This document shows, piece after piece, positions 11,013 to 46,274 of a stretch of 48,371 bases of DNA. The DNA is from Candidatus Bathyarchaeota archaeon (lineage in GTDB: Archaea > Thermoproteota > Bathyarchaeia > Bathyarchaeales > Bathycorpusculaceae). The notes beneath the pieces are model-generated. The model was not told where the DNA came from and ran no database searches. It saw only the letters and a list, made by a program, of their open reading frames with translations. The stretch lies in the NCBI GenBank assembly GCA_016927015.1, contig JAFGNM010000104.1:1-48371 (forward strand), given 5' to 3'. The number at the start of each line of letters is the position of its first letter. The first letter of the stretch is position 1. Made by a program: the position numbers and the translations under genes.

Positions 11013-11125
11013 GTTGGACTATCCAGCCAAACGTTTATATGAAGTTCCATTTTAAACAATGAAACAGAAGGGGCAAGCGTATTCGCGCAAATAAAATTGG
11101 TAATACTGGGAAGGTGATTGAGGGA

Positions 11126-12280
11126 ATGAAGGCTACTTCCAGATTGGTGCGAGATAACATCAAGAGCCTTAAGCCTTGCGTTCACGGCGGTGAAGTCTGG
11201 GAAGCTGCTAGCAAAATTGGCCTCAGGAAAGAAGAGATTTTAGACTTCAGTTCAAGCGTCAACCCATTAGGTCCTTCTAAGAAGGCGCTTGAATCAATAA
11301 AGGCTAATTTGGGGCACATTCCCAGTTATCCGGATTCAAATTCTACTGAGTTACGAGAGGCTATTGCAACCCAGTTCAGAGGAATAGGTAAGGATAATGT
11401 GATTGCAGGCAACGGGTCCACCGAACTCATTTACTTGTTTGTTGAGACATTTATGAAAAAAGGTGATGTGGCGCTTATTCCTGAGCCTACATTTGGCGAG
11501 TATGAAAGGGCTGTGAGAAGAATTGGGGAAGAGCCTAAACACGTAAAGCCGAACCCAAATTTTCAGTTCAGTCCAGCTGTTTTTGCACGTGATTTGAGTG
11601 GCGCCAAGATTGTTTTTTTCTGCAATCCGAACAATCCTACGAGTGTTCTCACTCCACCTGAACATTTGACGGCTATTGTTGAAAGAGCGCTTGAAGAGAA
11701 CGCCTTTGTTTTTCTTGATGAGGATTTCCTTGAGTTTGTTGATGGAGAAGAACGTTTTTCGTTGATAGGCAAGATAAGGAGGTATCCTAACCTTTTTGTT
11801 TTAAGGTCGTTTACGAAGATTTTTGGGTTAACAGGACTTAGAGTAGGCTACGGGATTGCTTCCGAAGAAATCATCAACGTCTTACTGAATGCCAAAATAC
11901 CTTGGAACGTTAACTGCTTAGCTCAAGCTGCTGCCACCGCAGCCTTAGCAGATAAAGAGCATTTGAAGAAAACACGTCAGCTCATCAAGGACGAAAAAGC
12001 ATTTTTGATGCGTGGGTTAATGCAGATTAAGGCTTTCAAAGTTTTTCCGGCTGACGCGAACTTCGTTTTTGTAGACGTTAGGCAGTCAGGTTATACAGCG
12101 GCTGAACTTAAGGAGAAAATGTTGAGGGAGGGGGTATTGATACGAGACTGTAGTTCGTTTAGAGGGCTTGATGAGTACTACATTCGGGTGGCGGTTAAAA
12201 CTCGTCGAGAGAACGAAACGCTATTAGAAACCTTGAAAAAGATTGTGGGGAATGATGTTGAAGCATCTTTTATTACGTGA
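11126..12280 (+). CDS. cobD: CobD-type threonine-phosphate decarboxylase / histidinol-phosphate aminotransferase-like PLP enzyme
   Basis: The protein has 384 residues from ATG 11126, with AAGGTG 9 bases upstream; a GTG at 11114 is less well placed. It is a fold-type I PLP enzyme. The HGG motif near the start is typical of CobD, then come NPLGPS, CNPNNPTS and the Schiff-base Lys K231 in SFTKIFGL. Because cbiB follows 39 bases downstream, the likely job is making aminopropanol phosphate for the nucleotide loop of cobalamin. HisC activity in histidine synthesis is the alternative; no his operon is nearby. Confidence 0.82.
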   Translation: MKATSRLVRDNIKSLKPCVHGGEVWEAASKIGLRKEEILDFSSSVNPLGPSKKALESIKANLGHIPSYPDSNSTELREAIATQFRGIGKDNVIAGNGSTELIYLFVETFMKKGDVALIPEPTFGEYERAVRRIGEEPKHVKPNPNFQFSPAVFARDLSGAKIVFFCNPNNPTSVLTPPEHLTAIVERALEENAFVFLDEDFLEFVDGEERFSLIGKIRRYPNLFVLRSFTKIFGLTGLRVGYGIASEEIINVLLNAKIPWNVNCLAQAAATAALADKEHLKKTRQLIKDEKAFLMRGLMQIKAFKVFPADANFVFVDVRQSGYTAAELKEKMLREGVLIRDCSSFRGLDEYYIRVAVKTRRENETLLETLKKIVGNDVEASFIT

Positions 12281-12319
12281 ATTGCTTGTTTTTCAAATGG
12301 GTGAGTTTGAGCAGGGAAC

Positions 12320-13291
12320 ATGTTGCTGATTGAGAGCGGTGTTTTTGTCGATTCACTGTTGATTTTTGTCTTGGCGTTCTTGATTGACGCAGTTTTCGGC
12401 GAGTTTCCAGACAGAATACACCCAACAGTGTGGATAGGCAAGGTTATAGCTTATTTCAAGCCTAAATTCAAAAATGAGAATCCGCGAATCGAAAAGATAA
12501 ACGGTGTCATTTTATGCCTGTTGGTTATCTTGATTGTCGCAGTTCCTGTCTACTTTCTGCTTTTTGGGATTCGCCTTTTCTTCGGGTGGGTACCGTACAT
12601 TGTTGTGTCCGCGATTTTGTTCAAGACCACCTTTGCAATTAAGTGTATGAAGCAATATACTGTTCCGATAGCTGAGGCATTGAAGCACAAGGATTTTGAC
12701 AAGGCTAAGCGAGGCTTGTATTTCATTGTGAGGCGTGACCCAACTAAGCTGAGCGAACAGCAAATTGCCTCTGCGGCAGTTGAGTCTATAGCAGAATCAA
12801 CAACGGACGGAATTACTGCGCCCTTCTTTTTCTTTGCTTTGTTCGGTGTTCCAGGCGCTTTTGCGTTTCGGGTTATCAACACGCTGGATTCGATGGTGGG
12901 CTACAAAGACCAGGAGCACAGGAACATCGGCTGGTTTTCAGCGAAACTGGACACGGTAGCGAACTATGTTCCAGCCAGATTGACTGCAATATTGATGGTG
13001 GTTGCGGTAGCGCTTTTGGGAGAAAATTGGCGAGAATCCTGGAGAATTCTGCAGAGAGACAAAACAAAAACCAACAGCCTAAACGCGGGATGGACTATGT
13101 CCGCTATGGCTGGTGCCTTGGGTGTTCAGCTGGAAAAGTCTGGGCATTACGCGTTGGGAGACAAGGGAGACATTTCGCCAGCGCACATCACGAGAGCGTT
13201 GCGAATAATGACGTTAACCGCTATTCTGTTTGGCACCGTGGTGATTTGTCCAATTTTAGCGTTAAAAGCGCTAGTTACAAGATTAGTTTAG
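12320..13291 (+). CDS. cbiB: Adenosylcobinamide-phosphate synthase
   Basis: The protein has 323 residues with several membrane helices and the CbiB hallmarks: the early DAVFGEFPDRIHPTVWIG segment, ESIAESTTDGITAPFF, and YVPARLTA. The enzyme joins aminopropanol (or its phosphate) to adenosylcobyric acid in the membrane, a late step of cobalamin synthesis or salvage. It follows the CobD-like gene on the same strand, and the two should act in sequence. No other corrinoid gene or cobalamin riboswitch is visible. Corrinoid supply fits a Wood-Ljungdahl-type methyl metabolism, also suggested by the methanofuran genes. Confidence 0.94.
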   Translation: MLLIESGVFVDSLLIFVLAFLIDAVFGEFPDRIHPTVWIGKVIAYFKPKFKNENPRIEKINGVILCLLVILIVAVPVYFLLFGIRLFFGWVPYIVVSAILFKTTFAIKCMKQYTVPIAEALKHKDFDKAKRGLYFIVRRDPTKLSEQQIASAAVESIAESTTDGITAPFFFFALFGVPGAFAFRVINTLDSMVGYKDQEHRNIGWFSAKLDTVANYVPARLTAILMVVAVALLGENWRESWRILQRDKTKTNSLNAGWTMSAMAGALGVQLEKSGHYALGDKGDISPAHITRALRIMTLTAILFGTVVICPILALKALVTRLV

Positions 13292-15791: not shown

Positions 15792-16631
15792 CTATTTTTG
15801 TTTGAATTGTTTTTTAACGGTTTCTATTTTTTCGCCTATGATTTGTGCTTGGCTTTTTCCTAGGCCTTTTTCGTGGGCTTTGCGTATGTGTGCGATTTCG
15901 TAGGGGTTGAAGCCCATGATTCGGGCGGCTGTGGCGTCTGTGGCGACTGCGTCTGTTCCCGCGATTATGAGGTTCATCGGTACGGGTGTGCCGTCTACGG
16001 GTCCGTTGCCTTCCATGCCTACGAAGCCGTCTATAACAGTTAACGCAGAATGGAGCACGGTGTTTATGTCGACTATGACTTTGCTTATGCCTTTCATGTG
16101 GTATTTGCCTTTGAACTTGTCAGGAAGCAAACCGAACATGTTCTTCATGCCCAACGTCACACGGGTATTCGCGTGCGTTTTGAGCTTGGCGGCGCTGATA
16201 ACCGCGGATTCGGTAACAAGCCTCGGCACAGTTATGCTCTTCAACGCTTCACCGTTAGGCACCTCAAGCTTAACCTTGTCTTTGACGTGGCGGAGGTTAA
16301 GCCATTCGATGCCGTTGCGGCGGCACATGTCTTTCATGCCCGTAGCCTCAAACGCTTTGTCAGCATTAGTTATTGATGCATCTGACTCTACAACGTAGAC
16401 TTTCACGGGCAAATCTGCAAGCTTCTTGATTATGGCTTCAACTACTATGGGGTCTGTGGTGGCGCCCGTGTCCCAAGTTTTGGTGGTGATGAAGTTGACT
16501 TTGATGAGAACCGTATCGTAACCCGCAAGCGCGCTTCTGTAGTCTATTAGGTCGAGGGCTTTGAAAACTGGCTCGTGACCACGCTCGCCTCTAACAACAG
16601 CCACAACTGGCGACTCAGATTGCATATCCAT
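15792..16631 (-). CDS. DUF362 family protein
   Basis: The protein has 279 residues with the DUF362 landmarks: VLIKVNFIT, AKLKTHANTRVTLGMKNMFG and a VDINTVLHSALTVIDG segment. Many DUF362 proteins carry a ferredoxin-like cluster-binding domain; here no CxxCxxC motif is seen, so the protein is the bare core. The biochemical role of the family is not settled. It is the last gene of the methanofuran operon, 28 bases after mfnE on the same strand, which suggests a link to methanofuran or one-carbon metabolism. Confidence 0.85.
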   Translation of the reverse strand: MDMQSESPVVAVVRGERGHEPVFKALDLIDYRSALAGYDTVLIKVNFITTKTWDTGATTDPIVVEAIIKKLADLPVKVYVVESDASITNADKAFEATGMKDMCRRNGIEWLNLRHVKDKVKLEVPNGEALKSITVPRLVTESAVISAAKLKTHANTRVTLGMKNMFGLLPDKFKGKYHMKGISKVIVDINTVLHSALTVIDGFVGMEGNGPVDGTPVPMNLIIAGTDAVATDATAARIMGFNPYEIAHIRKAHEKGLGKSQAQIIGEKIETVKKQFKQK

Positions 16632-16659
16632 ATCAACGAAGCTTAGCTTATAACCGTGT

Positions 16660-17337
16660 TTATCCAGTTCTTGCGGGAATTAACGTGCAAGTAGCCTGCT
16701 GACCTGCAAGGATAGCGTCGATTCTTTCAGGATGTTTCCCGTTAACCACGTAGCAGTCAACAGGCGACTCCACAAGCAGTTTAGCCAAAAAACGGTCAAC
16801 ACTCGTTCGCGCATCAAGCTTCAGCAGTTCCCCAGCTGACAGTCGCTCTATCAACGTAGCATCCTCATTTTTCTCAGGGTCTTTCGTGAAAATTCCGTCT
16901 ACGTCAGTAACCAAAACAAGTTTAGCCGCCTGCAACCGGCTGGCAACATAGGCTGCAATGGAATCTGAGGTGACGTCCCACGAGTTTTTCAGCGGGTCTT
17001 CCTTGAACATCAGCCGCGACGGCAAGAAAACCGGCACCACCTCAGTCTCCGCAAGCTGCTTTGCGTCACCAAGCGAATAGGTTGCGCAGGAGTTAGGCGT
17101 AATTTGGGCTAGTAACATTCCAAACTGATCCATCCCCAGAATCGCCATCCTATGCGAGACGCCGCTGGATAAATTGAAACGCTTATCAGAATCCCGTACA
17201 ACATCAGCAAACCTGCCGCCTCCAGGCACCACAACCAACCCATAGTTTTCCGCAAGCCCGCTTAACTTGGCGCACAAAGCTATCAGCCACTCTGGCTCTT
17301 CAGCCAAGCTTCCACCCACCTTAACAACCGCGTCCAC
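16660..17337 (-). CDS. mfnE: Amino-acid-kinase-family MfnE, aminomethyl-furan-methanol phosphate kinase
   Basis: The protein has 225 residues of the amino acid kinase fold: VVKVGGSLAE at the start, VVPGGGRFADVVR, a DVTSDSIAAYVA segment and LVTDVDGIF. In methanogens MfnE phosphorylates the furan phosphate to a diphosphate, which makes the furan ring ready for coupling by MfnF. Identification rests on the fold and on the flanking mfnF and mfnD genes. The GTG start shares one base with the mfnF stop (TAGTG), so translation is coupled. A copy of the short dispersed repeat lies about 104 bases upstream, inside mfnF. Confidence 0.87.
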   Translation of the reverse strand: MDAVVKVGGSLAEEPEWLIALCAKLSGLAENYGLVVVPGGGRFADVVRDSDKRFNLSSGVSHRMAILGMDQFGMLLAQITPNSCATYSLGDAKQLAETEVVPVFLPSRLMFKEDPLKNSWDVTSDSIAAYVASRLQAAKLVLVTDVDGIFTKDPEKNEDATLIERLSAGELLKLDARTSVDRFLAKLLVESPVDCYVVNGKHPERIDAILAGQQATCTLIPARTG

Positions 17338-18443
17338 TACACCAACCTCCCATCAAGCGTACACGCCGCCATCAACGCAACACCAAAAGCAGGCGAAGCC
17401 TTCACCACATCGCTTCGCGCCAATGGACTAAGAGGCATTCTGTATACAAAAGCATCACCCAAACACAGTTTTTCAAGGTCCAAAACCTCGTCAACACCAA
17501 TTTTTTGCGCGGCGGTCCTTGCGATGAACTCTTTGCCGAGTCCTGTAACCACAACGGGAACTTTTGCCTTTGTAAGCGACTTAACTCGAGAGTAAACTTG
17601 GCTCAACCCCTCAGCTACCTGCTCAACCTGCCTGCAATGCGCGTATTTTGCGATTTGCACAATTTCCGCCTCAGTCAACATTTCAGTGTCGGCGCAGACA
17701 ACTCGGGCGAGACGCGCCAACGCTTCCCTTCGCGTTTTTCCACGTCCATCCGCCGTTTCCGTCGTGTACTTCTCTTCACTGATGTTGCCTAAGACCAAAT
17801 GGACATCACCTGACTGCGCAAACAGTTCCGAGGAGACCCGCGCTGTGCCACCTCGAAACGGAACAGAACTCACGATTGCCGCAATGTTCGTCCGCAAGCT
17901 TCCCGTGTAAACGAGCTCTCCAACCATAAGCTTCTCCAAATCAGTCTTGCCAACCGCTGAAACACGCCCGTCAACCACTGGTATGATGCTGGTGCTTGTG
18001 CTTCCAACATCTACTATGACGCAGGTCTGGATCTGCTGGGCGACCATCCAGCCTGTTGCTGCCCAATTCGCCGCGGCTACCATAAACGGTTCGGTTTTGG
18101 CATCGTTTATTGACCTCAGTGTTGCGTCTACGTCTAAAACGAAAACTGGCAAGTCAGCGAAAGCCTCTGCAGCACACGTTAAAATGTGGTTGACGCCTTC
18201 TCGCTTAGTTTGATACGCGTCAGACAACTCCGCAGTCATGGTTAAGCCAACACCGTCAAGCTTCACGTTGCTGCTTACTTTCTCTTTCAGCGTTGAAAGC
18301 ACGCGAACGAGTTTCTCGGGGTCCTTCCAGACAGGAAAATACTCTATGGCAGTCCTAATCTCTTTGACGTAACTATTTTCAGTGCGCAGGAAAACGGCTT
18401 TGGTGTTGGCGCCTCCGATGTCCCAGCCGATAACAGTTACCAA
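17337..18443 (-). CDS. mfnF: MfnF-like condensing enzyme (hydantoinase/oxoprolinase-related)
   Basis: The protein has 368 residues. An actin-like phosphate motif (GWDIGGANTKAVF) opens the protein and a second one (VIVDVGSTSTSI) lies near residue 145, as in the family once called H4MPT-linked C1 transfer pathway proteins. MfnF joins the furan diphosphate to glutamyl-tyramine, forming the core of methanofuran. The start is TTG 18443, only 2 bases after the mfnD stop, with a GTAGCG run between. Near its 3' end the coding sequence contains a word (17441-17468) that matches the intergenic repeat family seen elsewhere in the window. Confidence 0.88.
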   Translation of the reverse strand: MVTVIGWDIGGANTKAVFLRTENSYVKEIRTAIEYFPVWKDPEKLVRVLSTLKEKVSSNVKLDGVGLTMTAELSDAYQTKREGVNHILTCAAEAFADLPVFVLDVDATLRSINDAKTEPFMVAAANWAATGWMVAQQIQTCVIVDVGSTSTSIIPVVDGRVSAVGKTDLEKLMVGELVYTGSLRTNIAAIVSSVPFRGGTARVSSELFAQSGDVHLVLGNISEEKYTTETADGRGKTRREALARLARVVCADTEMLTEAEIVQIAKYAHCRQVEQVAEGLSQVYSRVKSLTKAKVPVVVTGLGKEFIARTAAQKIGVDEVLDLEKLCLGDAFVYRMPLSPLARSDVVKASPAFGVALMAACTLDGRLV

Positions 18444-18445
18444 CG

Positions 18446-19678
18446 CTACATGCCTCTGTCTATAGTGTTAATAACGCGCTTTTTAGCTTCACGGAACCTC
18501 GAGGTGGCTTCATTTAATGTGGCACCATAAGATGCGATTAACGCCGAGGCAGCGCCATTATCTATAACTGGGAAAGGCGGAGAAACAATTTCGTCAATCC
18601 TGTAAGTCGTTTCGAGAGCATCAACCGTCGGGTTAGGCGTTTCTACCTTCGAAAAATATGTGCAACCACAACTTTTGCTGTGTCTTGGCAGTTCGCGTTT
18701 TAAAACAGCGTTTACAATCGCTTGGGCAGGGTTAAAGTTGACAACTCTCCTTAATCCCACGTAGGACGTGGTTAATCTTGGATTAACCTCTATGATCACA
18801 GCCTCATCTTCAGTCAAAACAAAATCAACGCCAACATATCCCCTTAAGCCTAGGACGGAGTTAACAAGTCTTTCCGCCACCTCAAACGCTTCAGCCCGAA
18901 GCGGGTTGTCAAAAGGAACCAAGCCACCACTATAACTTGAACAGACTTCAGGCGTTTCAATCGTAACGTCTTGGCGGTTCAAGCTGATGGGCACGGCTTC
19001 GCTGCCCGTAGAAAGCAAGCTAACGCTCGCAGCGGCGCCCTCGATTAATTCTTGAACCAGAAAATGCCTGCTCAGCGACTCCCGCTTAATCTTGTCAACC
19101 CCGCCAGCCACCTGTTCCTCATTTCGGACAACGCTTAATCCGCAACAGCTAACGCCGTCCGAAGGCTTGAATATCACGGGAAAATTCAAACGGCCTCGAA
19201 CAGCTTTCGTGACTTCCTTCAAATCATCAGCTACGCTAAACATTATTGTCTCAGGCAGAGGCAACCCAAGTTTCCTCATGAACTCGTAGACGCCTACTTT
19301 GTCGGACACTTTTTCTATAGCGATAGCTGGACAGTTCAACGAGGCTGTGCCCGTCTGTTCTACAAGCTCCACAAGCGACTGCAAAACGCCATCTGTTTCT
19401 GGCGCAATTACGTAAGCCGCATCAGCCTGTTCAGAAATTTTACGCAGGTTCGCTTGCGCCTCCAGTGAAGAAAAAACAGGCACTACACAATCAGCGTCGA
19501 TGGGCGGATTCAACCTTGCAATACGCGAATCAAGCGTGGCGGTAACGCTGTGTCCAGCAGCTTTAAAATCCGAAATCAGCGTCCTCAGCATGCCGAACCC
19601 CTCGCTCAAAACGCTGCCTGGGATTGCCTCAGCAGCAAAGCCGCCGCCGGAAACATGCTCGTAAACCAGAAGCCTCAA
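18446..19678 (-). CDS. mfnD: Tyramine-L-glutamate ligase (ATP-grasp)
   Basis: The protein has 410 residues. It opens with the family signature LLVYEHVSGGGF, then has an ATP-grasp core: FPVIFKPSDGVSC (about 165-180), FLVQELIEG (about 208-216) and the metal-binding VIIEVNPRLTTSY. A Cys pair (SCGCTYF) lies near residue 338. The enzyme forms gamma-glutamyl-tyramine in methanofuran synthesis. Neighbours on both sides belong to the same pathway. The tail (about 385-410) is basic and helical. The tyrosine decarboxylase that supplies tyramine (MfnA) is not in the window. Confidence 0.9.
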   Translation of the reverse strand: MRLLVYEHVSGGGFAAEAIPGSVLSEGFGMLRTLISDFKAAGHSVTATLDSRIARLNPPIDADCVVPVFSSLEAQANLRKISEQADAAYVIAPETDGVLQSLVELVEQTGTASLNCPAIAIEKVSDKVGVYEFMRKLGLPLPETIMFSVADDLKEVTKAVRGRLNFPVIFKPSDGVSCCGLSVVRNEEQVAGGVDKIKRESLSRHFLVQELIEGAAASVSLLSTGSEAVPISLNRQDVTIETPEVCSSYSGGLVPFDNPLRAEAFEVAERLVNSVLGLRGYVGVDFVLTEDEAVIIEVNPRLTTSYVGLRRVVNFNPAQAIVNAVLKRELPRHSKSCGCTYFSKVETPNPTVDALETTYRIDEIVSPPFPVIDNGAASALIASYGATLNEATSRFREAKKRVINTIDRGM

Positions 19679-19717
19679 GCGCTCGCCTCACCAAACCTCG
19701 ATGAGAACAAGCATATC

Positions 19718-20440
19718 TTAAAGCTTTTCTGCACGTTTGACGACTTCAACGAGCTCTTGCACTTTTTCTCTGGTGATTTGACCGTTGACTCTGTCGCTTA
19801 GGGTGCAAGCGGCGCCTCTCAAACCCGCCACGTCAGCGCCTAAAGCGTAAACCACGGGCAAATCCTCCTTTTGCAGTGACCCAGCTAACGCGGCCTTTAA
19901 ACCGTAACTGTGCGCTACGTCGACAAAGCGCTGAAGCTGAGGCTTTGTGAGAAAGTTGAAGAGGCTTTTTCCGTCTTTAATTGCCGTGTCGAGCATGGCT
20001 ATGTCCGCTTGGGCTTCATACGCTATTTTGGGAACAAGCAAGGGGTCAACGGTGCTTAGTCTGGCTGCGTCAGCGTATCCTGAGGCAACCACTTTGATTG
20101 AAGGGTTATATTCTTTGGCGGCTTTGGTGACGCTTTGCATCAGGTATACCGCTTCCTCAAGCGTTTTTAATCCGTAAAGTCCAGCTTTGATGTAGTTGAC
20201 GCCTGTTGCTGCCGCGCCTAACGAAGCCAGCGCCATGGACCCGGGCAGGTTGGGCACTTCGCCTAAAGTGCAACTTACTTCAATGTTTGTTGGGGTGATC
20301 TGCCTGATTCGCTTTATCACCCATGGAAAGCTTGCGCCTAGCGGACCCTCCTTTGGGTTCTTGACATCTATGATGTCCGCGCCTCCAGAGATGGCTTCCA
20401 CGGCTTCTTTCTCGTTTTTTGGACTAATCAGTAGTTTCAA
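19718..20440 (-). CDS. mfnB: (5-formylfuran-3-yl)methyl phosphate synthase
   Basis: The protein has 240 residues, a TIM barrel of the former DUF556 family. KLLISPKNEKEAVEAI at the start, ADIIDVKNPKEGPLGA with the key Lys pair, and the ASGYADAARL and LDTAIKDGKSLF segments are typical. It condenses two glyceraldehyde-3-phosphate molecules to the furan precursor, the first step of methanofuran synthesis. The TTG start gives the conserved N-terminus; an upstream ATG is out of frame. It is first in the operon mfnB-mfnD-mfnF-mfnE-DUF362. Confidence 0.93.
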   Translation of the reverse strand: MKLLISPKNEKEAVEAISGGADIIDVKNPKEGPLGASFPWVIKRIRQITPTNIEVSCTLGEVPNLPGSMALASLGAAATGVNYIKAGLYGLKTLEEAVYLMQSVTKAAKEYNPSIKVVASGYADAARLSTVDPLLVPKIAYEAQADIAMLDTAIKDGKSLFNFLTKPQLQRFVDVAHSYGLKAALAGSLQKEDLPVVYALGADVAGLRGAACTLSDRVNGQITREKVQELVEVVKRAEKL

Positions 20441-20584
20441 TTGTGCTCATATGATGCGGAATTTCTATGCCTTTAAAGTTTTTTGTTAAAAACCATCAAC
20501 CAAGATGCTGCTGCACTCAAACCATGGTAGTAGTGAAAGCTTTTCTATTGGTTAATAGTCATTGCAAAGGAAGAGGCAAACAGA

Positions 20585-40992: not shown

Positions 40993-41685
40993 TTACCTTT
41001 GAGCTACTATCATGGCGTGCGCCTTGTCATAAGGCTCCAAACGCACAATTTCCCTGACATCGAAGCCTCGTTTCTTCAAGACTTTGGCTTCCTGCTTGTA
41101 AACTACCAGCGGATCCTTCGTCACGTCAATACTTTGAGATTTAACAGCCAACATAACCCACCCTGACGGCTTAAGCAAAACGTCAGCGTTATCCGCTAAA
41201 ATCTTGGCTTGCTCCGGCTGCGCTACGTCACAGTAAATGCAATCCACTTTTCCCGGGATAAACATGGCATACTTCTCTGGGAAACGTGCGTCTTCAAGAA
41301 ACGGCGACATGTTAAGCCTGTACGCAGCCACGTTGTTGACTAGTTCTCTGATGGAGCGTGAAGCAAATTCCACGCAGTAAACGTGGCCTTCTTCGCCGAC
41401 GATGTCTGAAACGTGGCTCGGCGTGGTTCCAGAGGCAGCGCCCAAATAGAGAACGCGATTGCCCAGTGTTATGGGAACCGTTTGCACGCCCTTAATGATG
41501 GCTGCTGCCAGCTTGCTTCTGAAAGCGTCCCAAACGCGGTACTCAACCTTCTTGAAACGGATGAGCCTTTCGCCGTAAACGGTTCTGCCCGGCGTCAAGT
41601 TCCGCGTGGCTAACCGCTGCGTGCCGTCCTCAAGAAAAGTTTGGTAGACTTCCGCGAACTGTGGGTGAGGCTTAACCTTAGCGTG
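40993..41685 (-). CDS. flpA: Fibrillarin-like 2'-O-methyltransferase
   Basis: The protein has 230 residues from GTG 41685, preceded by GGAG. This start overlaps the nop5 stop by 8 bases; a longer frame to 41808 would add an Arg-rich, unconserved region. The SAM site is VLYLGAASGTTPSHVSDIVG (cited as LYLGAASGTT). The catalytic Lys-Asp-Lys-type residues lie in KKVEYRVWD, CDVAQPEQ and MLAVKSQSID. It methylates ribose in rRNA and tRNA as part of the box C/D sRNP with Nop5 and L7Ae. L7Ae is not in the window. Confidence 0.95.
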   Translation of the reverse strand, partial: HAKVKPHPQFAEVYQTFLEDGTQRLATRNLTPGRTVYGERLIRFKKVEYRVWDAFRSKLAAAIIKGVQTVPITLGNRVLYLGAASGTTPSHVSDIVGEEGHVYCVEFASRSIRELVNNVAAYRLNMSPFLEDARFPEKYAMFIPGKVDCIYCDVAQPEQAKILADNADVLLKPSGWVMLAVKSQSIDVTKDPLVVYKQEAKVLKKRGFDVREIVRLEPYDKAHAMIVAQR

Positions 41686-42937
41686 CACGCCTGTTATTTC
41701 TCCACTTCTTGTCTCGCTGCCATTGTTCCCGCCTTCTCGGTCTCTGCTCTCTCCGTTCAGGTCTCGGCGGCTTCTCCTTCGGTGGCGGCGGCTCCTTGTA
41801 CTTCTCACGAATCTCTGCCAGTCTCTTGTCCACGTCCGCCTTCAAAGCGTCACCTGCATATTTGCCTCCAAAAGCGTCAATCCGTGCGGCAATAGCTAAT
41901 TTTCCAGCTAAAACTCGGGCGATTTTGCCTCTCTGCCACCTTTTAGCGTCATGCAATAACGTGTGCTGGAAGATCAAGCCGTGCTTAGGTGGTCTCGCTC
42001 CCGTTTTCAAAGAGCGGAACAAGGCTTTCTCCGCGCCTAAAACCTGAATTGTGCTGGCTGGTCTCATGGCTAAATTCTGCAAGCTGCCGGCTATAGCGAT
42101 CAAGCGTGCGCCTAGAAGCGCGCCAGCTACTGCTTTGGTGTTAGGCGCCACTTCTTCCATGGTTTTATCCACGTAGCTTTCCATGTTTTTCCGCAGTTCG
42201 TAAAGTTCCAGCACGTTCTTGCTTAAGGCTTGAATTTCCGCCAAATCTTGTTCTGCCATGTCTGCGCCCATGGACTTTTCAGCCACAGTCCCGATGTTCT
42301 CGGCTCTTTCTTTAGGAAGCGCCTCTTTCTCAAGAGCTTCAACCGTGAAGTTGTCTTTGTAACCCAAGTTCATGACAAGACGCGCGTAAGTTTCATGTTT
42401 CTCGATTAACCGGTCAAGCTCTGGAAAATGAACCCCGTACCACTCTCTGAGGCGACCCATAAACAGGTTCACAGTCCTGTCCAAGTCATCAAGAGTTTGA
42501 ATAGCCTGCGCGATTACCAAGTCTCTCTTTTCAGCAGCGCCCTTAACCCGCAGTTTGGCGAGTTCCATGCTGACATTATGATTCCACAAGCTAAGCTCTT
42601 TCGCATCTTTAACGAAGCCTGCTTCAACCGCGATTTGCTCCATGCGAGCGCGGAGTGGCTCAGCCTCGGAGGGCTTCGAGACTTCCGTTTTAACGTTTAG
42701 GCTTTTTTGCGCTTCGCCAGCTACGTTTGCGTTTTCGAACACAAAAGTGTCATAATCAGCTTTCTGAAGCAGGCTGATTAGGGATGCGGTCTCTTCGGAG
42801 ATTTTTCCATCTTCAGCATTCATTATTTTTTTGGCTGCTGCCTGCGGCTTCTTCGGAAACAACACTTTGTCTACTAAGTTGTTTTGCTCGTCGAAAGCCG
42901 CAACTCCGAAAGTAAATTGAATTATCCTTGCTTTCAT
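41678..42937 (-). CDS. nop5: Nop5 (box C/D sRNP scaffold protein)
   Basis: The protein has 419 residues. The N-terminal domain (1-120) binds fibrillarin. A coiled coil (about 130-240) is followed by the NOP domain (about 250-370) with VAPNTKAVAGALLGARLIAIAGSL (in parts VAPNTKAV and GARLIAIAG) and HGLIFQHTLLH. The last 60 residues are a Pro/Arg/Lys-rich tail typical of archaeal Nop5. The protein joins sRNA, L7Ae and fibrillarin. It is transcribed with fibrillarin, whose start overlaps the nop5 stop. A TATA-like CTATTTATTAAG lies about 40-50 bases upstream. Confidence 0.95.
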   Translation of the reverse strand: MKARIIQFTFGVAAFDEQNNLVDKVLFPKKPQAAAKKIMNAEDGKISEETASLISLLQKADYDTFVFENANVAGEAQKSLNVKTEVSKPSEAEPLRARMEQIAVEAGFVKDAKELSLWNHNVSMELAKLRVKGAAEKRDLVIAQAIQTLDDLDRTVNLFMGRLREWYGVHFPELDRLIEKHETYARLVMNLGYKDNFTVEALEKEALPKERAENIGTVAEKSMGADMAEQDLAEIQALSKNVLELYELRKNMESYVDKTMEEVAPNTKAVAGALLGARLIAIAGSLQNLAMRPASTIQVLGAEKALFRSLKTGARPPKHGLIFQHTLLHDAKRWQRGKIARVLAGKLAIAARIDAFGGKYAGDALKADVDKRLAEIREKYKEPPPPKEKPPRPERREQRPRRREQWQRDKKWRNNRRAR

Positions 42938-43098
42938 GACATAAACCTCGTTACAAACTAACTATTGCATGGCACTGTCTTAATAAATAGTTGTTGCTTT
43001 TAACGGCCAAGTTTTCTAACGGCTTGAGGCGCTGCGATAGTTAACCTTTAAACTATTGCTTGCTTATTAGGTACTGCAATTTGAGAGGGGAAAGCATA

Positions 43099-45312
43099 GT
43101 GGTAAAACTTCCGCGTCTTGCACGAGGCGTCAAAGTTCTAAAAGCCGTTTCGTCACCTCTCAGACTGCAAATTCTGAACCTAGTTTCCGAAAAAGGCGAC
43201 CTCTCCTACACTGAGTTGATGAACTCGTTAAAGATGAACCCCAGCCGGGACGCTGGACGATTCGCTTACCACCTCAAGTTTTTGCTCAAGGCAGATTTGC
43301 TTGAAGCTGACACTGATACTAAAAAGTACGTCTTGACCGATTTGGGCAAAATGGTGATTGACGTTGCAGACCGCGTTGAAAAGAAAGCCGATAAACCCCG
43401 CGGAATGCTGGTGCGCACTTCACACTTCACGCTGGAAGAGTTTGACGCGAACAAAATAGCCAACTCGCTTATCAAAGAAGCCAAAGTGCCCCCTGAACTC
43501 GCGAAGAAAGCGGCTAAGGAAGCGGAGAAACGCTTGCTTAAGTCGAAAACGAAGTACTTGACCGCGCCGCTGGTCCGGGAAGTTGTGAACGTGATTCTGG
43601 TTGAGAAAGGCTTTGAGGATTACCGCCATAAGCTTACGCGGTTGGGCATGCCGGTTCATGAAGTAACCAGCTTGATGGACGCTAAAGACCATGCTCGAGA
43701 TTCAAATGCTATCCTTTCGAAAGCGGGAAAAACAGTTTTAGGCGAATACACGCTTCTGAACGTTTTTCCAAGAGATGTTGCCGACGCTCATGTTTCCGGC
43801 GCCATTCACGTGAAGGGTTTAGGAACGTGGATTTTGAAGCCGAATGAAGTAATGCATGATTTGCGCTTTTTCTTGCAGCACGGTCTCAAAGGGGCTAGCC
43901 CCCTTCAACTTTCAGAGGGGGCGCCTCAAAGTTTCGAGTCTGCATTGTCAATTATCTTTAATGTTCTCTTGCACGCCAGCAGGGAAACAGAGGAAATGCA
44001 AACTTGCGATTACTTCAACGTTTTCCTTGCGCCCTTCGTAAAAGGTGCTGATGTTGCAGCAGTAAAGGAACAGTTGCGGCTATTCATTTTGAATGTAAAT
44101 CAACACGTAGAAGCAACGCTGGGGTTGGAGCTTTCAATTCCAAAATTCGTGGCGGACAAGGCAGCCGTTGGACCTCGGGGAAAAATGTGCGGCAAGTATG
44201 GAGACTTTGCCGAGGAAAGCCAATTATTAGTGTCGCTTGCCATCGAAATATTCGCGGAAGAAGGCGTTCCAAAACCTTTGCTTAACCCCCGACTTGTTCT
44301 TAAAATCAGTAAAGAAACGGTAACGGATGAAAACGCAAGAGCCGTTCTCTTGAAAGCTCACAGTTTAACGGCGGATAGGGGCATACTCTACTTCGCCAAT
44401 ACACTGCAAAAAGGGGAGACCTACGCGGTTTTTTCTGCGTCAGGGTGCAAGCTTGAGGCAGATTTGACGGGCGACTGGGAAACAGACACCTTACGAACAG
44501 GCTGCCTTGGAGTGGTAACAGTTAATCTTTCTCGAATCGCCCATGAGAGCGAGAAAGACACGAACAAGTTTTTCGAAATTTTGAAGGAACGTTGCGAACT
44601 GGCAGCACGCGCCTTGAGCATCAAATACCGCGCGCTCAAGCAACACGGCAAAAACTCACTTCCATTCCTGGCGCAACGTTCGAATGGCGACACGTATTTC
44701 AGGCTTGAAAACTGTTCACGCATAATAAATTTTGCTGGGTTCCGGGAATGTGTGGAAAGCTTCTGCGGGAAGAACCTAAGCCATGAAGAGAGCGTCAAGT
44801 TCGCGGAGGAGCTTGTTCAGAACTTGTCAGCTTTCAAACGTAAACTCGGCAGAAGACACGGAAAGCGTTTGTTCCCTGCAGTGCTGCGAAGCCTTGAATC
44901 TTCTGTGCGACTGGCTCAATTAGACATTGAAAAATACGGCGTTGCCAAAGTAACGTTTTCAGGGACCCGAGAGAGTCCATTCTATTCAACTACGAAACGG
45001 TTGAATCTTCAAGCGGGCAATTTTCCCTATGTTTCATCTGAATCGCTGGAGAGCGAACAAAAACTGAAAGGTCTGAACGCTGGAGGCAGCTTGAGCATAA
45101 TAGAATTGGAAGGTAACAAATACACGTCGGAGGAGCTCATGAAGTTGACAGAGCATTTGATTAAGAATGAGTTTTTGGAGTTCTTCACTTACAACCGCGT
45201 AGCCACGTACTGTGATAGCTGCAAGAAAAGCTGGTTCGGAGTCTTGCACAAGTGTCCTTCTTGCGGGTCTATGGGCACTCTGACAACGTTTGACCGGTTC
45301 GCCTCTACTTGA
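43099..45312 (+). CDS. ArsR-like winged helix-ATP-cone-NrdD-like protein lacking the glycyl-radical loop
   Basis: The protein has 737 residues from GTG 43099, with a GAGAGGGG site 6-7 bases upstream (an earlier TTG at 43060 has none). Residues 1-75 form an ArsR-type winged helix (SSPLRLQILNLVSEKG, MNPSRDAGRFAYHLKFLL). Residues about 90-180 are an ATP-cone (FTLEEFDANKIANSLI). The rest resembles class III ribonucleotide reductase: SGCKLEAD around C450, TGCLGVVTVNLSRIAH, AGGSLSIIEL, and a zinc site C705-x2-C708, C719-x2-C722. The normal end would be SRVTGYL-like with the radical Gly; here the chain ends at TFDRFAST. It is probably inactive as a reductase and may be a nucleotide-sensing regulator. 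Confidence 0.8.
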   Translation: MVKLPRLARGVKVLKAVSSPLRLQILNLVSEKGDLSYTELMNSLKMNPSRDAGRFAYHLKFLLKADLLEADTDTKKYVLTDLGKMVIDVADRVEKKADKPRGMLVRTSHFTLEEFDANKIANSLIKEAKVPPELAKKAAKEAEKRLLKSKTKYLTAPLVREVVNVILVEKGFEDYRHKLTRLGMPVHEVTSLMDAKDHARDSNAILSKAGKTVLGEYTLLNVFPRDVADAHVSGAIHVKGLGTWILKPNEVMHDLRFFLQHGLKGASPLQLSEGAPQSFESALSIIFNVLLHASRETEEMQTCDYFNVFLAPFVKGADVAAVKEQLRLFILNVNQHVEATLGLELSIPKFVADKAAVGPRGKMCGKYGDFAEESQLLVSLAIEIFAEEGVPKPLLNPRLVLKISKETVTDENARAVLLKAHSLTADRGILYFANTLQKGETYAVFSASGCKLEADLTGDWETDTLRTGCLGVVTVNLSRIAHESEKDTNKFFEILKERCELAARALSIKYRALKQHGKNSLPFLAQRSNGDTYFRLENCSRIINFAGFRECVESFCGKNLSHEESVKFAEELVQNLSAFKRKLGRRHGKRLFPAVLRSLESSVRLAQLDIEKYGVAKVTFSGTRESPFYSTTKRLNLQAGNFPYVSSESLESEQKLKGLNAGGSLSIIELEGNKYTSEELMKLTEHLIKNEFLEFFTYNRVATYCDSCKKSWFGVLHKCPSCGSMGTLTTFDRFAST

Positions 45313-45320
45313 ACTTGGGC

Positions 45321-46274
<954 letters not shown>

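Follow-up and report, generated by a model that had tools for sequence, protein, structure and literature searches.

Ribonucleotide reductase (RNR) genes need tight control, and bacteria use NrdR to provide it. NrdR (TIGR00244) is an RNR repressor in which a zinc ribbon is joined to an ATP-cone. Among radical enzymes, the PFL family includes aminoacyl radical enzymes, in which the Gly is replaced by Ala, Ser or Thr and stable radicals are formed; a 2024 study of non-glycine radical enzymes also searched the class III RNRs (NrdD), and found only the canonical Gly forms (PMC11528403). In this report, we focus on a protein encoded in a 48,371-nucleotide stretch of DNA from a Candidatus Bathyarchaeota archaeon, hereafter the window, in which an ArsR-type winged helix, an ATP-cone and an NrdD-like barrel are fused in one chain. 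We propose, with a probability of roughly two in three, that this fusion protein derives from an RNR and regulates the transcription of RNR genes in response to nucleotides, and as such is a functional analogue of NrdR.

The fusion protein has the fold, the position of the ATP-cone, the zinc ribbon and the NLxR motif in common with NrdD (NRDD, TIGR02487). Unlike NrdD, however, it has neither the substrate cysteine nor RxxGY, its radical cysteine is not conserved, an N-terminal winged helix is added, and its score against TIGR02487, the NCBIfam NrdD equivalog, falls far short of the cut-off (223.8 against 326.35 bits). With NrdR it shares the combination of a DNA-binding module with an ATP-cone, and it is likewise linked genetically to more than one class of RNR gene, but it has a winged helix for the zinc ribbon and a dead NrdD of 500 residues in addition, and TIGR00244 is not among its NCBIfam matches at E<=1. 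The fold and the recognition-helix pattern are those of the ArsR/SmtB repressors CzrA, SmtB and HlyU. In contrast to these, the fusion protein lacks the metal-site cysteines and is joined to a cone and an NrdD; since residues 1-95 contain no Cys at all, there is no ArsR metal-site motif, and the HTH_metalloreg model NF033788 gives 28.7 bits against a cut-off of 55. Regulators of the MocR/PdxR type also join a winged helix to the fold of a metabolic enzyme, reused as a sensor, although that fold is an aminotransferase rather than an RNR, and their sequence is unrelated. As the fusion family fails the radical motif and cysteines of NrdD, as well as the zinc ribbon of NrdR, it fits no known family. 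Its way of working would resemble that of NrdR, while as a family it appears to be new; no description of it was found in a search of the open literature, which covered few subscription papers and no bioRxiv preprints.

Domain architecture and conservation

The fusion gene is a single uninterrupted reading frame, starting at a GTG preceded by gagggg, with an alternative TTG start at 43060. Its features are collected in Table 1. Pfam assigns residues 207-727 to NRDD (4.1e-62), residues 104-175 to the ATP-cone (7e-6), and residues 13-88 to both HTH_5 (6.1e-6) and DUF7347 (9.2e-7), all above the curated cut-offs. The AlphaFold model of the whole protein (pLDDT 81, pTM 0.71) retrieves class III RNRs first in Foldseek (E 1.7e-22). 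When residues 1-199 are modelled separately (pLDDT 77), the first half resembles the ArsR repressors CzrA, SmtB and HlyU and the second half the ATP-cones of NrdR and NrdB, these matches having a probability of 1.00, yet E-values that are all above 0.001. The initial annotation had read the same succession of winged helix, ATP-cone and NrdD barrel with a four-cysteine zinc site from the letters, and the profiles, the models and the invariant cysteines agree with it.

Table 1. Positions in the window of the fusion gene, its parts and its surroundings.
Feature	Position	Strand	Basis or remark
Fusion gene (HTH-ATP-cone-NrdD-like)	43099..45312	+	737 aa; ORF, Pfam, 36 full-length relatives
ArsR-type winged helix, residues 9-95	43123..43383	+	Pfam HTH_5, DUF7347; Foldseek CzrA/SmtB/HlyU
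Recognition helix, residues 52-64 (AGRFAYHLKFLLK)	43252..43290	+	H58 invariant, 125/125 family members
ATP-cone, residues about 103-176	43405..43626	+	Pfam ATP-cone; Foldseek NrdR and NrdB cones; R106 and R160 invariant, 125/125
NrdD-like barrel, catalytically dead, residues 207-727	43717..45279	+	Pfam NRDD 4.1e-62; Foldseek class III RNR
E250, at place of substrate cysteine C79 (T4 numbering)	43846..43848	+	Cys in 0/125 of family against 22/22 canonical NrdD
C450, at place of radical cysteine C290 (T4 numbering)	44446..44448	+	Alignment, family against canonical NrdD
Four-cysteine zinc site C705, C708, C719, C722	45211..45264	+	Invariant in close-family alignment
FDRFAST and stop, replacing glycyl radical loop RxxGY	45289..45312	+	C-terminus common to close relatives
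Upstream element TTAACCTTTAAACT, core GTTTAAAC kept in relatives	43041..43054	+	TATA/BRE box, perhaps also operator
pyrB, convergent neighbour	45321..46259	-	Ancient synteny marker, not co-transcribed

A scan of 84,980 species, each represented by one genome, yielded 36 full-length relatives with 55-84% identity to the window protein, nearly all of them from Bathyarchaeota or Bathycorpusculum. A chance fusion in one MAG is excluded by these relatives and by the profile matches across the class and phylum described below. The winged helix and the cone are the most constrained parts of the protein, as dN/dS against L003 is 0.06 and 0.055 in these two parts and 0.14 in the barrel. In a tree of the cone-plus-NrdD part, which was quick, unrooted and has some long branches, a single branch separates the fusion family from canonical NrdD (SH-aLRT 99). 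Two genomes of a single genus (g32; G154:C173 and G156:C127) carry a TAG in frame within the family gene, possibly reflecting amber readthrough or decay.

Distribution and neighbouring genes

A profile of the fusion protein has matches in 244 of the 257 genomes of the window's class and in 120/120 of the most complete ones; in three of the family-level groups, which are numbered with f-codes, it matches canonical NrdD only (f25-f27). The fusion family is also present in other classes of the same phylum. These include ammonia oxidisers, recognised by AmoA, which was found in all ten genomes tested from f29, f58 and f61; in members from f29 and f61, all three Pfam domains again score above cut-off. 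Canonical NrdD is missing from these ten AmoA-positive genomes, and in all 26 window-family genomes tested canonical NrdD and the fusion protein occur together. Among 55 genomes tested for NrdR, it is above cut-off in 9/9 of the window's family and in G185, and absent in the other 45, including the ten AmoA-positive ones.

In seven families (f4, f6, f9, f21, f22, f23, f47), an intact nrdD follows the fusion gene directly downstream in tandem on the same strand, starting a few hundred nt further on. The combination of fusion and nearby intact nrdD, which the initial annotation suggested looking for in archaeal genomes, thus exists in several anaerobic lineages of Bathyarchaeia. The adjoining nrdDs fall in several distinct clades of the cone-plus-NrdD tree. 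In all 37 genomes of four other families (f29, f58, f61 and f71, the first three being AmoA-positive), the gene directly downstream on the same strand is nrdJ (class II), as it also is in f18 of the window's class. No RNR gene adjoins the fusion gene in f3, f5, f35, f46 and f64. It also stands apart from RNR genes in the window's family, and in the window's own genome the fusion gene, nrdR-nrdD-nrdG and nrdJ lie on three separate contigs. In G309:C6 and G330:C20, a long insertion in frame, probably an intein, interrupts the nrdJ match (ORF of 1266-1298 aa). In two f61 genomes, a gene judged by eye to be CdvB/ESCRT-III-like lies directly upstream of the fusion gene (L203, 4446-5057; L205, from 7033).

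The gene order with an active RNR, together with the retention of the NrdD fold and of the zinc site in most members, could also be explained by a dead RNR subunit that pairs with the adjoining active enzyme and tunes its activity, the winged helix serving for contact with other proteins or for tethering to the nucleoid. The catalytic subunits of RNRs are commonly active as dimers, which would suit such pairing. However, the fusion gene tracks two RNR classes and several nrdD clades, it persists where any canonical NrdD is missing, and the strongest constraint lies on the winged helix and cone. We therefore regard a tuning subunit as unlikely.

A convergent pyrB is the next gene in the window's family, at a distance of 7-63 nt in most loci, and it is a neighbour in nearly all close relatives as well as in many deep members. 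Four nrdD-tandem loci have pyrB after nrdD, and the old order was thus likely regulator, nrdD, pyrB. Both this adjacency and the separation of the window-lineage gene from all RNR genes would be expected if the protein regulated broader nucleotide or pyrimidine genes, pyrB among them, and not RNR. On the other hand, pyrB is convergent and so has no promoter in common with the fusion gene, and the fixed neighbour in ammonia oxidisers is nrdJ, not pyrB; control of pyrB and the like is accordingly quite unlikely. As the two genes share no promoter, the functional support which the initial annotation drew from pyrB falls away, and the gene is better seen as an old syntenic neighbour.

Elsewhere in the window, genes for Nop5/56 and fibrillarin (C/D box guide RNP; 40996-42937, minus strand) are divergent from the fusion gene. 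A run at 15795-20446 (minus strand) resembles methanofuran biosynthesis, with 4-HFC-P synthase (MfnB), an MfnE-like amino acid kinase, and hydantoinase-type, ATP-grasp and DUF362 genes. A class I/II aminotransferase gene followed by CobD/CbiB (11063-13288, plus strand) is likely involved in the synthesis of cobalamin, which class II RNR would need.

Upstream of the fusion gene, GTTTAAAC is found in 23 of 37 orthologous promoters, against 18 sites elsewhere in 574 kb. The site in the window is the sole exact match to the wider TTAACCTTTAAACT-type pattern in its own genome, and at the near-matches elsewhere the adjoining genes show no obvious connection with nucleotide metabolism. Its place and sequence also fit a TATA/BRE box, and hence we do not claim it as an operator. 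As an operator common to the fusion gene and nrdR-nrdD it was rejected, being absent ahead of the latter. Relatives of the window genome have tandem NrdR-box-like sites ahead of nrdR in the nrdR-nrdD-nrdG operon, and this operon, with its NrdR-box-like sites and no GTTTAAAC, counts against the regulator reading in the window's family. In ammonia oxidisers, a conserved candidate operator, gTAryGGTGTnAAnannTTGA, lies in the gap between regulator and nrdJ, upstream of the TATA-like box of nrdJ, and is absent ahead of the regulator gene (L202, L204, L210, L211, L216-L235). As nrdJ has its own TATA-like box there, co-transcription with the fusion gene is not implied. No operator common to the promoters of the family and those of RNR genes was found, and Rfam gave one tRNA and nothing more in the ammonia-oxidiser loci.

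Catalytic residues and the C-terminal end

Residue counts come from aligning 125 family members with 22 canonical NrdDs of the loci examined; the 125 include near relatives, and the counts are thus not counts of independent events. The place of the T4 substrate cysteine C79 is taken by Glu in most members of the window's family. At the place of T4 C290, Cys is present in 22/22 canonical NrdDs and in a minority of the fusion family (10/57 in the window's family), which mostly has V, I, T, L, F or S; the Cys preceding it is mostly replaced by Gly. C450, to which the initial annotation had drawn attention, is indeed present in the window copy, but it is not conserved in the family, and the substrate cysteine is E250 in the same protein. 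Asn at the place of T4 N311 is kept in 124/125 members, and the NLxR motif is kept too. The zinc cysteines are kept in most members and lost in some distant relatives.

The chain of the window protein stops at TFDRFAST, as noted earlier, at the position of R[IV][TV]GY in canonical enzymes. All 36 close relatives end at the same place or within a few residues of it, and the convergent pyrB ends 9 nt past the stop codon, so that no radical segment follows. RxxGY, present in every full-length canonical NrdD, occurs in 0/125 family members, and thus no relative with an intact glycyl-radical end came to light. The radical loop is lost altogether in the window's family. Many deep members outside it retain loop and tail, with the Gly replaced by Ala, Ser, Thr or Asn, and in a few (family f10, L094) Gly does occupy the loop place, but without the following Tyr and without C79. 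Taken together, these losses bear out the earlier view of a non-functional reductase, and the data support a catalytically dead NrdD that is maintained by selection.

Since deep members have Ala, Ser or Thr in place of Gly within a retained loop and tail, like the aminoacyl radical enzymes of the PFL family (PMC11528403), an active reductase with its radical on another residue, or with a glycyl segment supplied in trans, might be considered. However, the catalytic cysteines of these deep members are not conserved, the substrate Cys is gone in 125/125, most members lack the radical Cys as well, the loop is missing from the window's family, and some members have no zinc site, making such activity very improbable. 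A truncated pseudogene or a sequencing error is hardly credible, as it has nothing but the appearance of an early stop in its favour, while a frame or assembly error at 45280-45312 is excluded by the end common to the 36 relatives and the low dN/dS, and pyrB follows immediately.

Proposed regulatory role and its implications

The regulator reading rests on the following observations. The putative DNA- and nucleotide-binding parts are best conserved, while variation is tolerated in the catalytic parts; in many lineages the gene remains beside RNR genes, also across a change of RNR class; and it occurs mostly where NrdR is absent, the window's family being the exception. In this way, the suggestion of a reductase turned NrdR-like regulator is retained, without its pyrB argument. 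The winged helix would bind DNA, the ATP-cone would sense the dATP/ATP balance, and the dead NrdD barrel would act as a dimerising, perhaps nucleotide-binding, scaffold; DNA binding, nucleotide sensing and dimerisation are what the architecture suggests, and repression rather than activation would be expected by analogy with NrdR. The ancestral target may have been the adjoining RNR gene, class III nrdD in anaerobes and class II nrdJ in ammonia oxidisers, and the protein would take the role of NrdR where the latter is missing. The window's family, with its nrdR-nrdD-nrdG operon, has retained it apart from the RNR genes.

The cone itself gives a mixed picture. In S. coelicolor NrdR, V48, K50, R51, E56 and K62 contact the nucleotide (PMC9110341). 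By-eye alignment with the NrdR of the same genome places V105, E113 and K119 of the fusion cone at V48, E56 and K62, but T107/S108 at K50/R51, and the missing K/R pair speaks against the regulator reading. A canonical archaeal NrdD (L039) has the same VRTS form, which makes nucleotide binding by the fusion cone plausible on sequence grounds.

In its widest form, to which we give an even chance, the proposal is of a phylum-wide family of archaeal transcription factors, not related to NrdR, in which a dead RNR senses nucleotides and controls the adjoining live RNR. Its client would have changed from class III to class II in ammonia oxidisers, and the effector may bind at the specificity or substrate site of the NrdD part as well as at the cone.

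Most archaea examined have no NrdR, and the fusion family is thus a candidate RNR regulator in Bathyarchaeia and in ammonia-oxidising archaea, the latter being abundant in oceans and soils. For genome annotation, it follows that NRDD in an aerobic archaeon need not imply a working class III reductase. The grades of decay across lineages, from loop kept to loop lost to zinc site lost, form a ready evolutionary series. If the proposal is true, the family would represent an RNR-derived transcription factor, namely an enzyme turned regulator of its own pathway.
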